Counted from the first letter of the stretch, positions 14,316 to 19,440 are shown. The stretch is 64,000 nucleotides of DNA from SAR324 cluster bacterium REDSEA-S27_B3 (GCA_001627865.1 LUQO01000005.1:1-64000), one strand, 5' to 3'. Program-made: numbers and translations. The notes: generated from the letters alone by a model not told the origin.

Positions 14316-16061
14316 TCAATCAGGTTCACGCATTGCGCTTGAAAGAGATTTTAAAATAGGATTTGTAAAGTATGTAATTAATCGTCTTTTGCCTACCTTT
14401 AAATCAGCCGAAGCAAGCATGCCTGGCGTTAAATCGAAGTCTTCTGGTAAACCAAGAATTTCTGAATCTGTAACCTCAACTCGTCCTCGATAATACGCAC
14501 CTGATTCTCCTTGAAGAGATTCTTCAACAGTGTCATCCGATACGTAAACCAGTGTCCCCTGTATATCCCCAAATTGCTGAAAGGGAAGTGCATCAATTTT
14601 AACCGAAACAGGATCGCCAATGAATACATCACTTGCATCTTTGGGATCAATATCAATTTCTAACACCAGAGGTAATCCGGTTCGGACTAATGTAACTATA
14701 GATTCTCCTTTATTCAACAGTGACCCAACAGTTACAGTTGGTAAGTTTAATACAACTCCTTCAACGGGTGACTTCACATGCAAATTGCTTTTTTCAAGTT
14801 CATTTTTAATTAATTCTTCGTTTAATTGCAGCAACTGATCATTAAATGAAGACAGCTCTTCTGCAAGAGAAGACAATTGCTCAGACAAATAAGAATTCAT
14901 TTGGTCAACAATAGCTGTTTTTTGTGATTTCAATTTTTCTATATTGCTGACGGTTGACTGTAACTGACGATTTAGAGCAATCCTTTGATCAGTTGAATTC
15001 AGAACATCCATTAATGAACCAACATTTCTTTCAAATAATTTCTTTTTGCCGTCTTCAATTTTAATTTTAATTTCTAACTGATCACGCAGTAACTTATGAT
15101 CTTTTTTCATTGAAACAATTTCATTCTCCAACTTTATGATATCAAAAGAAAAAGTTTTCATTTTGATCATAAATTCATCAAACTTCTTTTCAAGTATTTC
15201 TTTATTAATATCGTCCAATTTATCTAATCCATCTTCCTTAAGTTTTTTGTTTATGATGGAATTTTTTTGAAGTTTCAGTCGCAATATTTTATTTTTTACA
15301 GCATTTATTTTGTCTTCAACAATTTTCAGATTTGCATTTACGACAGTACCATCAAGTTTTGCTATCGTCTGACCTTTTTTAATGTGTTGTCCGCGTTCCA
15401 AATTTAATTCCTTAATGAACGAACTACCAGTAGACTGAATTTCAATATTCGGTGCAGTATTGGTGAATTTACCACGAGCAGAGACTGTTTTATCCACAAA
15501 AGAAAAAGAGGACCACAGTGTCATCACAACAATAAATATCAATAAACTGACTGCACTGATAATTACAGGTCTGGAAGGTGGCCTTGAATAAATTGATTCT
15601 GTATCTTCAATATTATTTACTGCAGCTTTATCTGTTTGATCATTCTGATTTTCTTTGACTGATTCATCATCCGTTTTTTTATGGTCAAGCATGGTTCCAA
15701 TAGCCCTTTTATCAGCAGCTCTTACATAACCAGACAGCCTTACCATCATATTAAAGGCTGCTTCAGGTTTTTGAGATAAGTATTTTATAAATGCTTTCTT
15801 ATCTACTTCCTGAACTTTGCAGTCAATCAATGCACGGGCTGAAGCACTTCGTGGTGAACCATCAATGATTGCCATTTCGCCAAAAATAGTACCTTTCTGT
15901 ACCTTGCCCAGAACCTGTTCTCCTTCAGGTGCATCACGTACTATCTCAATTTGACCCTCGTTAAGGACATAAGCAAAATGGGCTACATGGCCCTCTTCAA
16001 ATATATATTCTCCTTTGCTTAATTCCAGTAATTTAGGTCCCCTCGCGGTATTTTCAGCCAT
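14316..16061 (-). CDS. HlyD-type secretion adaptor fused to an N-terminal cyclic-nucleotide-binding domain
   Basis: An unusual 581-aa fusion. Residues about 1-125 form a Crp-type cyclic-nucleotide-binding domain with an intact phosphate-binding cassette (FGEMAIIDGSPRSASARA, 60-77; Glu62 and Arg71 are the ligand contacts in the family). A charged linker leads to one membrane helix (about 165-187). The rest is a periplasmic adaptor: a split lipoyl-like segment (EIQSTGSSFIKELNLERG...), a long coiled coil (about 245-410) and beta-barrel regions. Topology puts the cNMP domain in the cytosol. It starts 13 nt after the ABC exporter ORF ends, so the two form a unit. The inferred role is secretion gated by cAMP, cGMP or a related ligand. 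No TolC homologue is in the window. Confidence 0.85.
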   Translation of the reverse strand: MAENTARGPKLLELSKGEYIFEEGHVAHFAYVLNEGQIEIVRDAPEGEQVLGKVQKGTIFGEMAIIDGSPRSASARALIDCKVQEVDKKAFIKYLSQKPEAAFNMMVRLSGYVRAADKRAIGTMLDHKKTDDESVKENQNDQTDKAAVNNIEDTESIYSRPPSRPVIISAVSLLIFIVVMTLWSSFSFVDKTVSARGKFTNTAPNIEIQSTGSSFIKELNLERGQHIKKGQTIAKLDGTVVNANLKIVEDKINAVKNKILRLKLQKNSIINKKLKEDGLDKLDDINKEILEKKFDEFMIKMKTFSFDIIKLENEIVSMKKDHKLLRDQLEIKIKIEDGKKKLFERNVGSLMDVLNSTDQRIALNRQLQSTVSNIEKLKSQKTAIVDQMNSYLSEQLSSLAEELSSFNDQLLQLNEELIKNELEKSNLHVKSPVEGVVLNLPTVTVGSLLNKGESIVTLVRTGLPLVLEIDIDPKDASDVFIGDPVSVKIDALPFQQFGDIQGTLVYVSDDTVEESLQGESGAYYRGRVEVTDSEILGLPEDFDLTPGMLASADLKVGKRRLITYFTNPILKSLSSAMREPD

Positions 16062-16074
16062 TTAATTATTTTTA

Positions 16075-18297
16075 CTAACAATTATTGATGCCCGTTACTT
16101 CATGCTGATCCGGAATCGCTTTAACATTTATTGGATTTAATTTTTCTTCTTTACTCAACATCTGTTGGTATAATTCACATGTATTTATTAATTGCTCATG
16201 AGTACCTTGCCCGACTATTTCTCCTTCATTCAAAACGATAATTTTGTCATAGCCTTCAATTGCATCTATTTCATGACGAATTACGTTTTGAGCGTCAAAA
16301 ACTGTTCTGTCAGTGCAAATAGATGAAAAATTTTCCTGTAGTTTTAGACGGGTATTTATATCAAGTGAGTCAGCAAATTCATCCAGCAACAATACTTTAG
16401 GTTTTGCAAGCAAAGCCCTTGAGAGTGCCAGTAGGCTTGAACCCGCTCCTGCCAGCTGGCTGGCATTCTCATCAATTGTTGTGTGGATGCCATCAGGCAG
16501 TTTCATCAAGTGTTCATCAAAACCTGTTAATGAAAAAATACTATCCAGTTCACGGTGTCCTGTCCTCTGGGAAACACGGAAAAGGTTCTCTTCAATTGTC
16601 CCTTTAAAAAAACCAGGGTTTTTACTCAAAAGCATTACCTGTGTTCGGTAATATGAAAGGTCATATTGTGTGATACGTATTCCATCAATATCCATTTTAC
16701 CTTCTGTTGGGGTGTATACACCTGCAATAAGATTCAACAAGGTTGTTTTACCTGCGCCAGTAGGTCCAATGATTCCAATTTTTGATTTAGGATTAATTTG
16801 AAAAGAAATATTTTTTAATGCCTTTACTTCCCCAAAGTTCATTCCAACATTTGCTAAAGCATACTTACCGCGAATAGTGGAATGAATACCTGCTCCCAAA
16901 CGCTCTTTTTCCTTATTCCAAATATCTCCGATATGTGAAACAAGACCTAAAAGCTGATTTCTTTCTCCCATTAATGTGATCGCTGCAATAACAGGCGCAA
17001 CCAGTCTGCCAGCAACCATATTAATCGCAATGATTGAACCTGCAGACAATTCTTCCATGAAGACCAATTGAACTCCTGTAAAAATAATTACAATAGTCAT
17101 TGCTTGTTGCAGGAAGCCGGAAAACTCAGTGGAAGTGCTGGTAATTTGATTTTTCTTAGCCCTCACTTCAATGGAAGCAGCCGCAAGTTCTCGCCAGTTT
17201 TTTCTTTGTATCTCTTCTTCCCCTAATTCCTTAAGCATGTGCATGCCGCTTAAGGTTTCACGAATTAGACTGTTTTTATGGCTTTCTATTCCTGCAAGAT
17301 GTTCGGAGGTTTTTTTACCGATATTATTAAATATTATTTTGCTTAATCCCATCGCAATGGCAAATGCCAGCACAATAGTTCCCATCAACAAATTATAGGC
17401 AAATAAAACTGGAACATAGACGATAACTGCGGTCAAATCAAAAATTCCATGAAAGACTTTTGTTACTAAACTGTTTCTTAATGATGTAACTGACTGAATA
17501 GAAAGCCCATATTTGCCAATGTTTTCTCCTTGAACAGACATCAAAGGCAAGCCTAACAATTTATCGAAGATATCACTTGAAATTCTTGATTCAATTTTGT
17601 CGCCAATATAATTAAAGATGTATTCTCTGATGAACCCCATTACGGCATTAAAAAATAATGCAACTACAACCCCCCCTGTTAACACATATAAAGTGGATAC
17701 AGCCTTATATCCCACAACTTTATCTAATGCTATCTGAATGAATATAATAGGAGTAAAAGCTAAAATGTTAAGTATGATTGAAATCAGAAAGGCACAAATT
17801 AATACAAACCGACAATTCCATAATTCAGGCAGGAACCAGTTGACATTAAAACTTCGATCTTTACTTTCAGTTCCTCGAATTACATTTAGAGCAATGAAAA
17901 TATTTTTCCATAGTTTTTCAAATTCACTTAATTCCAGGTCCTGCTGTTTACCTTCTGTATCAAGGGGATCAAGATATTTAACGATATAATCATCGTCTTT
18001 CTTTTGTAAATTCAAGACGATTATTGACCCGCCATTCTGCAGGGGGACAGCGCAAGGAAAAACAAAATCTTTACTCTTTAAATCATTGAGTGAAATATTG
18101 ATTGCCTTTGCCTCAAGTTTTTTCTCTACAAGGAAATCATTTAAATCTTTGATTGATTTTGGAGAACTTTTTTCAGGGAAGTGTTTTTCTATTTCTTCAC
18201 GATTGACATAGACTCCATGTCTTCTGGTGGTTAATGAGATACAGTAAGCCAACCAGTGGTCAACAAGAATGTTATTCTCTTTCTTGCCAAACATCAC
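16075..18297 (-). CDS. Type I secretion ABC exporter with C39-like domain and atypical ATPase motifs
   Basis: A 740-aa half transporter. The N-terminal ~140 residues resemble a C39-like domain without the peptidase Cys/His arrangement (NGGSIIVLNL where a His is expected). Residues about 160-460 form the membrane domain, and the rest is an ABC ATPase. Walker A GPTGAGKTT (511-519) and Walker B VLLLDEF (635-641) are intact. Other motifs are altered: the signature reads LAGAGSS (615-621) instead of LSGGQ, the Q-loop Gln appears as Lys (LLSKNPGFF), and the H-loop reads FDAQNVIRH, with Gln where His is expected. It would be the inner-membrane pump for the HlyD-type neighbour. Weak ATPase activity or strict regulation is an inference. 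It has no clear ribosome-binding site. Confidence 0.85.
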   Translation of the reverse strand: MMFGKKENNILVDHWLAYCISLTTRRHGVYVNREEIEKHFPEKSSPKSIKDLNDFLVEKKLEAKAINISLNDLKSKDFVFPCAVPLQNGGSIIVLNLQKKDDDYIVKYLDPLDTEGKQQDLELSEFEKLWKNIFIALNVIRGTESKDRSFNVNWFLPELWNCRFVLICAFLISIILNILAFTPIIFIQIALDKVVGYKAVSTLYVLTGGVVVALFFNAVMGFIREYIFNYIGDKIESRISSDIFDKLLGLPLMSVQGENIGKYGLSIQSVTSLRNSLVTKVFHGIFDLTAVIVYVPVLFAYNLLMGTIVLAFAIAMGLSKIIFNNIGKKTSEHLAGIESHKNSLIRETLSGMHMLKELGEEEIQRKNWRELAAASIEVRAKKNQITSTSTEFSGFLQQAMTIVIIFTGVQLVFMEELSAGSIIAINMVAGRLVAPVIAAITLMGERNQLLGLVSHIGDIWNKEKERLGAGIHSTIRGKYALANVGMNFGEVKALKNISFQINPKSKIGIIGPTGAGKTTLLNLIAGVYTPTEGKMDIDGIRITQYDLSYYRTQVMLLSKNPGFFKGTIEENLFRVSQRTGHRELDSIFSLTGFDEHLMKLPDGIHTTIDENASQLAGAGSSLLALSRALLAKPKVLLLDEFADSLDINTRLKLQENFSSICTDRTVFDAQNVIRHEIDAIEGYDKIIVLNEGEIVGQGTHEQLINTCELYQQMLSKEEKLNPINVKAIPDQHEVTGINNC

Positions 18298-18413
18298 TTA
18301 ATAGTACTTGAAGATTGAATAATTATTAATTACGAAGAATATATTGTAAAGAGAGAGGAATCTCTTGATGGAATCAGGAAAATTTATTCGGTTTTTCCCC
18401 AAACCAGATTTGT

Positions 18414-18448
18414 AAGTGGTGCACTTATAAAAAATTAGTGCACCACTT
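18414..18448 (-). terminator. Strong hairpin between the repeat-protein gene and the exporter genes
   Basis: A perfect 12-bp stem, AAGTGGTGCACT (18414-18425) with AGTGCACCACTT (18437-18448), and an 11-nt loop. It begins 15 nt beyond the stop of the repeat protein. In the minus (gene) direction the sequence after the stem is not T-rich, whereas in the plus direction it runs into TTT. It may be a leaky terminator, an mRNA 3'-end stabiliser, or a stop for readthrough from the other side. Any of these would keep exporter levels below cargo levels. Confidence 0.6.
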
Positions 18449-18463
18449 TTTAACATACCAGTA

Positions 18464-19440
18464 TTAACCCACGTCATCAAATGTTGGCGCATCTGGGGCA
18501 TCTTCCGGCATATCAGTGCCAGGTTCTGCTGGAGGACCTTCTCCCGCAGGTGGACCTTCTGGTGGTGGTCCTTCCTGTTGCTGGGCAAGAGCTCCATCCA
18601 TAGCTCCTCCCATAGGATCATCTTCTGGAGGAGGCATATCGCCGCCTGCGGGATCACCGCCAAGTGCCCCGTCAAGTGCGTCCATTCCTCCAAATTCCCC
18701 TTCAGGTTCAGGTCCCGGGCCCATTCCTGGTTCACCGTCCATCATTCCTGGAGGAGGTTCTCCAAAAGCTTCTACCGCCTCAGGTGAATTAGCAATCTCT
18801 CCCATGTCTGGAAGTGCTTCCATGCCGGGAAGATCTGAAGGCGGCTCATCGCCTGCTTCCCAGGTTGTAGTTTCACCATCCGAACCGGTCCATGAGCCTG
18901 AACCATCAGGATTCATTTCTCCGGATATTCCAGAACCTTCCGGACCTTGGAATGATGCAGAACCATCTGCACCCATTTCACCATGTGAGCCGTCAGCTCC
19001 ATCAAAGCTCATGTTTCCTTCACCATCTGAAGACAGAGTGTTTCCGTCAACCTGAACTTCACCAGCTGGTGGTGGGCCTGCTTCACCTTCGGGTGGTTTA
19101 CCGTCATCATGATCTGCTTCTCCACCTGGTGGTGGACCTGCTTCTGGTCCCGGTTCTCCACCTGGAGGTGGACCTGCTTCTGGTCCAGGTTCTCCGCCTG
19201 GAGGCGGGCCTGCTTCTGGACCCGGTTCTCCGCCTGGAGGCGGACCTGCTTCTGGTCCCGGTTCTCCTCCTGGAGGCCTCCTGGAGGCGGGCCTGCTTCT
19301 GGTCCCGGTTCTCCGCCTGGTGGCGGGCCTGCTTCTGGTCCAGGTTCTCCGCCTGGGGGTGGACCTGCTTCTGGTCCAGGTTCTCCGCCTGGTGGCGGGC
19401 CTGCTTCTGGTCCTTGTCCTGCTGTTGGATCTTGTGCCAT
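18464..19440 (-). CDS. Gly/Pro/acid-rich tandem-repeat protein, frameshifted; candidate cargo of the adjacent exporter
   Basis: Read as one gene interrupted by a frameshift. From the ATG at 19440 (AGGAG site just upstream) the frame gives MAQDPTAGQ, then 12-residue repeats GPEAGPPPGGEP. After the fourth repeat an 11-bp tandem duplication (19267-19288) shifts the frame. Removing it restores four more repeats, then GEADHDDGKPPEGEAG and an acidic Gly/Pro/Met-rich domain down to TFDDVG at 18464, giving 321 aa. As sequenced, the upper part runs out of frame to 19009, while an internal ATG at 19012 could start a 182-aa C-terminal piece. There is no signal peptide and essentially no Cys. It lies upstream of an ABC exporter and HlyD-type adaptor, so a secreted acidic repeat protein is plausible. 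No family is recognised. Confidence 0.65.
19115..19413 (-). repeat. Eight 36-bp tandem repeats encoding GPEAGPPPGGEP
   Basis: The span is 299 bp, exactly eight 36-bp units plus an 11-bp insertion. Units are near-identical, differing mainly at third positions (GGAGGC, GGTGGC, GGAGGT variants), which suggests expansion by slippage or recombination. The GC-rich block contrasts sharply with the AT-rich surroundings. Confidence 0.9.
19267..19288 (-). repeat. 11-bp tandem duplication causing a frameshift
   Basis: CTCCTGGAGGC occurs twice in a row (19267-19277 and 19278-19288, plus-strand reading) where every other 36-bp unit has one copy. Eleven bases is not a multiple of three, so it breaks the reading frame. 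It may be a real slippage mutation, a phase-variable state, or an assembly or sequencing error in a repeat. Confidence 0.85.

Follow-up and report, generated by a model that had tools for sequence, protein, structure and literature searches.

A cyclic-nucleotide-binding domain on the HlyD-type adaptor of a candidate derived type I secretion system in SAR324 bacteria

Positions 14316-19440 of a 64,000-nucleotide stretch of the SAR324 cluster bacterium REDSEA-S27_B3 (GCA_001627865.1 LUQO01000005.1:1-64000; hereafter the window) hold a three-gene unit in which the adaptor of a type I secretion-like exporter carries a cyclic-nucleotide-binding (CNB) domain. The open reading frames (ORFs) of the unit follow the order repeat gene, ATP-binding cassette (ABC) exporter and HlyD-type adaptor on the minus strand, as a first-pass annotation of the window had described. 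Because this order is complete in four sister species, we consider it to be beyond chance; in two further sisters it is cut upstream of the exporter gene by contig ends. The architecture of the unit, its intact nucleotide cassette, its conservation as a unit, the family of proposed cargo proteins and the degenerate ATPase motifs of the exporter are all read directly from the sequence. The explanation that we favor, with a probability of about 0.6, is a derived type I secretion system whose HlyD-type adaptor senses a nucleotide.

The fusion is defined by two profile matches within one protein. Residues 13-97 of the adaptor match the Pfam family cNMP_binding (PF00027; E=1.2e-21, 77 bits against a cut-off of 27.5), and residues 164-579 match TIGR01843, type_I_hlyD (E=3.5e-79, 266.7 bits against a curated cut-off of 208.65). 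The best PDB matches of the N-terminus are the regulatory domains of PKA and PKG, and the best match of the C-terminal part is HlyD of the HlyB/HlyD complex 8dck, which aligns to residues 159-579 (E=7e-20). The phosphate-binding cassette, FGEMAIIDGSPRSASARA (residues 60-77), lies N-terminal to the lone membrane helix, in the cytosolic N-terminus, so that the complete Crp-type cassette reported there by the first-pass annotation is confirmed. The helix itself (residues 164-186) appears in an AlphaFold model of the adaptor built from seven rows, a model of low confidence that is otherwise unusable (mean pLDDT 53.5, with the CNB region below 50).

Conservation of the cassette is strict. None of F60, G61, E62, R71, A73 and A75 varies among the 33 aligned adaptors. 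A further 20 adaptors all retain FGE and the cassette Arg, and each of the 53 full-length CNB-HlyD proteins read has the cassette Glu and Arg. Retrieval of these proteins was independent of the cassette: the HlyD part alone suffices to retrieve matches, as shown by hits to adaptors whose CNB domain is not intact. In PKA, the cassette Arg neutralizes the cyclic phosphate and a nearby Ala avoids a clash, and replacement of both residues explains the lost cyclic-nucleotide specificity in kinetoplastids (PMC10959531). The equivalents of both residues are present in the window adaptor (R71 and A64). We conclude that the adaptor CNB domain is complete and has a Crp/PKA-type cassette, from which ligand binding is predicted; the cassette favors cAMP or cGMP, with ppGpp a further candidate because it is the ligand of HetC, a Nostoc exporter with a related domain.

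One alternative is that the CNB domain serves as a structural or assembly module that oligomerizes or docks the adaptor, or that it senses another nucleotide such as ppGpp. CNB folds often act as dimerization modules. The HetC domain is essential although its ligand is ppGpp and not cAMP (PMC10986499), and a CNB domain has persisted in degenerate form in one clade of adaptors: in L122, L125, L130 and L131 (with L129) the domain is degenerate or absent, and where degenerate, in the clade of the first four, it is without the ligand cassette. However, Glu62, Arg71 and Ala73, which would be free to drift in a purely structural module, are invariant in 33 of 33 adaptors, with the Arg kept in all 20 of the additional ones. 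We therefore regard this alternative as rather unlikely.

The fusion is a family trait and not a peculiarity of one genome. Among 52 genomes of the SAR324 class it is limited to the genus of the window, where it occurs in half of the genus. It is full-length in seven SAR324 species, with adaptor orthologues 71-74% identical in the six sisters, and the chromosomal neighbors of the unit vary between these species. All three genes are broken in a further genome (G005), and another (G013) retains only a C-terminal adaptor fragment. This fragment (L039) lies 1-2 kb from two ORFs that resemble a split tyrosine integrase, and the arrangement suggests loss of the G013 adaptor by insertion. Outside the class, a metagenome-assembled genome (MAG) of the Rhodospirillales encodes a full-length relative that is 40% identical to the window adaptor. 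A search of the order of this MAG gave ∼25 more fusions that are full-length by matched range, and 8 and 13 further fusions came from a class sample (n=385) and a phylum sample (n=399), respectively. CNB-HlyD is thus a family centered on alphaproteobacteria and present in dozens of sampled Pseudomonadota. The three-gene unit recurs in many alphaproteobacteria as well, so that the search for the same gene order in other genomes proposed by the first-pass annotation succeeded both among the four sister species and beyond them. An artefact of one assembly is ruled out by the occurrence of the same fusion in many genomes. Among 796 plasmid records with HlyD-type matches, none covered 80% of the adaptor, and the CNB fusion was not found there.

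On a midpoint-rooted quick IQ-TREE phylogeny of 54 rows, built from the HlyD part alone with SH-aLRT support, the CNB adaptors require two changes, a single origin and a single loss. A starred clade of 23 rows, otherwise alphaproteobacterial, contains all seven SAR324 rows, and because of this nesting the SAR324 copies were probably acquired horizontally, which is the simplest reading of the tree.

The exporter is HlyB-like over its full length: its best solved match is HlyB (residues 15-710, E=1e-73), in agreement with the earlier assignment to a type I secretion-type exporter. It matches PF00664, PF00005 and, weakly, PF03412, and scores under the cut-offs of TIGR03375 and TIGR01846. The ORF is listed with a GTG start at 18297, and since relatives start at the ATG at 18294, the latter is the probable start. 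At the position of the catalytic Cys of the C39-like domain, SAR324 exporters have Trp, Arg or Lys, and no C39-type DCG motif was seen in the exporters of relatives. The active C39 cysteine protease of PCAT and NHLM exporters is therefore absent here.

A feature missed by the first-pass annotation is the degeneration of the nucleotide-binding domain (NBD), whose motifs we read from one MAFFT alignment of 70 exporters; the H-loop positions, found by text pattern, are the least certain. The window exporter has LAGAG at the signature, Lys at the Q-loop and Asn at the H-loop, but keeps the catalytic Glu and Walker A and B. It thus lacks part of the canonical set of NBD motifs for ATP hydrolysis expected of a type I exporter. 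Degenerate NBD motifs characterize every one of the 29 exporters from cargo-bearing loci (defined below) and 11 close sisters (n=40), whose signatures match LSGGQ at three or fewer of five positions. Thirty-five of these 40 no longer have the Q-loop Gln and 26 have a residue other than His at the H-loop, whereas only one is without Walker A, the Walker B Asp is universal and 30 retain the catalytic Glu. In contrast, where the locus has no intact CNB domain, all 18 exporters retain LSGGQ or FSGGQ together with the Gln (and His in the 17 scored), and among the remaining 12 CNB exporters 11 keep LSGGQ and one has LSSGQ; exporters of RTX-type CNB loci keep the canonical motifs. The degenerate motifs lower the claim of ordinary ATP-driven export, not that of family descent, and bear on how export could be driven.

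Such losses would also be expected if the exporter were no longer an active transporter and the unit were a signaling or scaffold complex or a relic. LSGGQ is lost in 29 of 29 cargo loci and the Q-loop Gln and H-loop His mostly so, and the frame-disrupted repeat gene of the window, the broken G005 unit and the G013 fragment point the same way. We nevertheless find this doubtful, because decay alone would not keep Walker A, which is retained, as detailed above, with the Walker B Asp and most of the catalytic Glu residues. In addition, exporter and adaptor are full-length and 68-74% identical across seven SAR324 species, and linkage to the cargo gene is retained in two phyla.

The first-pass annotation had treated the repeat gene as a single gene; in the assembly it is not one open frame. 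It contains 36-bp units at 19118-19413, identified with TRF, and ORFs 19009-19440 and 18464-19012 are thrown into different frames by the tandem duplication of an 11-bp unit at 19267-19288. Slippage or phase variation could have produced the duplication, or it could be an assembly error. Over 99 aa, the second ORF shares 89% identity with the intact gene of a sister species, so that the frame is authentic; together with the orthologous families, this identity rules out a chance ORF on a repeat. In G005 (L038 9700-13600), two successive copies of the repeat gene, both frame-disrupted, lie beside the broken exporter and adaptor.

To define the proposed cargo we scored ORFs of at least 80 aa that are rich in G, P, D, A, E and M, acidic, poor in basic residues, on the same strand and within 3.5 kb. 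A matching ORF occurs in 20 of 38 CNB loci with an intact flank and in none of 12 HlyD loci without an intact CNB domain (Fisher p=0.0014, uncorrected for relatedness), and none of 431 other ORFs of at least 150 aa passed; four more loci (L166, L167, L168 and L169) have an acidic low-complexity ORF on the opposite strand. The proteins are modular, with helical segments (xGASPEEAFxAA, FPPMPxEFxxA), Pro/Gly/acid repeats and, in SAR324 and some relatives, xGD[MV][ST]Gx heptads. Their tails are often acid-hydrophobic (DETDVV, DEIV, SEVV), with DDVG in the window. Pfam and NCBIfam gave nothing above cut-off for the repeat protein, and RTX nonapeptide repeats (PF00353) were not matched in the window or sister repeat proteins. 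In a model of the proposed G011 cargo, residues 11-160 form a helical N-terminal domain (pLDDT mostly 74-91) and residues ∼291-350 a solenoid-like heptad stretch (pLDDT 67-79), the rest being below 50, and a fold search of this model against the PDB gave no match at E≤0.001.

TolC-type (OEP) genes adjoin the unit in L163, L166 and L167, and the genome of the window has one on contig C75. With these outer-membrane factor genes beside the units of relatives, the conserved synteny and the shared cargo family, the repeat protein is likely the cargo of the exporter, as first proposed. A complete absence of repeat proteins from homologous loci, which the first-pass annotation had named as grounds for giving up its proposal, is not what we found. 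That the exporter handles something unrelated, with the repeat protein a chance or regulatory neighbor, is improbable: L046 and several other CNB loci lack such a neighbor and basal CNB loci adjoin RTX or protease genes, but the order is conserved in two phyla, the 20 of 38 loci stand against 0 of 12 controls, the cargo tails resemble type I C-terminal signals and degenerate NBDs coincide with the acidic low-complexity cargo class.

Several points weigh against the explanation that we favor. Weak or lost transport is one possible consequence of the degenerate NBD motifs, and, with the window repeat gene frame-disrupted and the G005 unit broken, the system may be decaying in places. The same-strand cargo ORF is missing from 18 of the 38 intact CNB loci, and the Fisher p-values ignore relatedness among loci. 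As to the ligand, the nearest tested protein, HetC, binds ppGpp and not cAMP (PMC10986499). Class III cyclases, with 19 matches in the genome of the window versus 4-8 in the seven sister genomes searched, occur in 33 of 33 CNB genomes but also in 197 of 199 genomes of the order, and being ubiquitous there are uninformative on the ligand.

In the derived type I secretion system that we propose, the HlyB-like exporter and the CNB-HlyD adaptor would form an inner-membrane complex that recruits a TolC-type channel encoded elsewhere. The acidic low-complexity protein would be exported, recognized by its acidic, hydrophobic-ending C-terminus, and no leader would be cleaved because the C39-like domain lacks protease residues. 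The HlyB/HlyD complex contains six HlyD (PMC9751043), from which we infer six CNB domains near the cytosolic domains of the exporter, and a review describes the cytoplasmic parts of HlyD-type adaptors as indispensable for recognizing the substrate and for assembly (PMC8277102). Once cAMP or cGMP is bound, the CNB domains would act as a switch on assembly of the complex or on opening of the channel. Given the loss of LSGGQ, and in many cases of the Q-loop and H-loop residues, ordinary rapid ATP cycling is probably not what drives export; the adaptor may instead set an ATP-bound open state of the exporter. Ligand, gating, cargo export and energy coupling are thus the parts of this scheme that we infer.

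A bolder version, which we put forward tentatively and hold to be rather unlikely, is a distinct class of type I secretion system with a catalytically degenerate ATPase, in which a second messenger bound to the adaptor, and not ordinary ATP cycling, would control the export of acidic proteins to the cell surface; its modular cargo would combine helical modules, heptad beta-solenoids and Pro/Gly repeats. Control of type I secretion has been described mainly at the level of gene expression. If our proposal is true, a ligand cassette borne by the adaptor would let export respond directly to a second messenger, and the coupled loss of the ABC signature motifs raises the question of how the exporter is energized. 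Members of the family occur in dozens of sampled Pseudomonadota and in an uncultured marine group. A literature search, with subscription journals mostly outside its reach, found no description of a CNB domain on a HlyD-type adaptor. The fusion itself is not unique, being one member of the family centered on alphaproteobacteria.

Coordinates of the features of the locus, with small ORFs of related loci in the last row, are collected in Table 1. The core pattern of the stem-loop at 18416-18446 has its sole match in the genome at this site; similar stems occur at the equivalent site in L033, L034, L035 and L036, and L032 has a different, longer hairpin upstream of the exporter gene. By analogy with other secretion operons, the stem-loop could allow more cargo than exporter to be made. 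The basal CNB loci (L113, L159, L171 and L172) adjoin RTX proteins or serralysin-type metalloproteases, both classic substrates of type I systems, consistent with type I ancestry. Upstream of the exporter in RTX-type CNB loci are small ORFs of ∼105-135 aa ending in SPNF or SPNFV/I; the only one searched against Pfam, that of L162, gave no match. A Crp-type regulator gene adjoins the exporter gene divergently in the close relatives L104 (12302-13024) and L105 (12298-13017). Elsewhere in the genome of the window, a CNB match (G000:C8:6528-6902, L002) lies within a 1220-aa open frame, and long frames of this kind (about 820-1230 aa) occur in most sister genomes.

Table 1. Features of the three-gene unit (window coordinates unless a locus is named).
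Feature	Position	Strand	Basis
CNB-HlyD adaptor, 581 aa	14316-16061	-	PF00027 at 13-97 and TIGR01843 at 164-579
Cyclic-nucleotide-binding domain, residues 13-97	15771-16025	-	Pfam E=1.2e-21; PDB matches to PKA/PKG regulatory domains
Predicted phosphate-binding cassette FGEMAIIDGSPRSASARA, residues 60-77	15831-15884	-	Invariant residues in aligned adaptors
Single membrane helix, residues ∼164-186	15504-15572	-	Hydrophobic stretch; low-confidence model; TIGR01843 start
HlyD membrane-fusion part	14325-15572	-	TIGR01843 above cut-off; 8dck HlyD alignment
HlyB-like ABC exporter with C39-like domain without catalytic Cys	16075-18294	-	Profiles; HlyB alignment
Walker A GPTGAGKT, intact	16744-16767	-	Motif reading; exporter alignment
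Q-loop position, Lys for Gln	16621-16623	-	Alignment of 70 exporters
ABC signature position, LAGAG for LSGGQ	16441-16455	-	Exporter alignment
H-loop position, Asn for His	16285-16287	-	Text pattern and exporter alignment
Stem-loop just past repeat gene stop	18416-18446	-	-21 kcal/mol, z=-5.3
Acidic Gly/Pro repeat gene (proposed cargo), two frames	18464-19440	-	ORFs 19009-19440 and 18464-19012
11-bp tandem duplication, GCCTCCAGGAG twice, shifts frame	19267-19288	-	Direct sequence reading; TRF
Small SPNF-ending ORFs	L162 3947-4276; L159 11825-12232; L171 11483-11800; L114 1404-1757		

Among known systems, the HlyA type I system of E. coli (HlyB/HlyD/TolC) is alike in that its exporter, with a C39-like domain, and its adaptor align full-length with those of the window, its substrate gene lies upstream of exporter and adaptor, and its TolC-type protein is encoded separately; as in HlyB, the C39-like domain of the window exporter is without the catalytic Cys. 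E. coli HlyD is not known to carry a CNB domain and has only a short cytosolic N-terminus, the LSGGQ, Q-loop and H-loop of HlyB are canonical, and the window cargo, unlike HlyA, is without RTX repeats. The earlier remark that cNMP domains occur on peptide ABC exporters was right: HetC of Nostoc is a PCAT ABC exporter with a cNMP domain that is essential in vivo and binds ppGpp, not cAMP (PMC10986499). In both HetC and the window system a cNMP domain is joined to part of an ABC protein exporter. HetC, however, carries it on the ABC subunit, has an active C39 protease and has no adaptor gene nearby, whereas the window system has it on the HlyD adaptor and has a C39-like domain without the catalytic Cys. 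The NHLM/Nif11 bacteriocin export clusters (TIGR03794, TIGR03796, TIGR03896) are only weakly similar: the adaptor resembles TIGR03794 and the CNB domain TIGR03896, far under the curated cut-offs (58.8 versus 156 and 27.4 versus 161, respectively), and the window unit differs in the absence of C39 protease residues and in a cargo that is a long repeat protein and not a leader peptide precursor. Finally, the CNB domain shares its fold family and a complete phosphate-binding cassette with Crp, the PKA regulatory subunit and SthK, but unlike these proteins, whose outputs are DNA-binding, kinase-inhibiting or channel parts, its output is a membrane-fusion protein.
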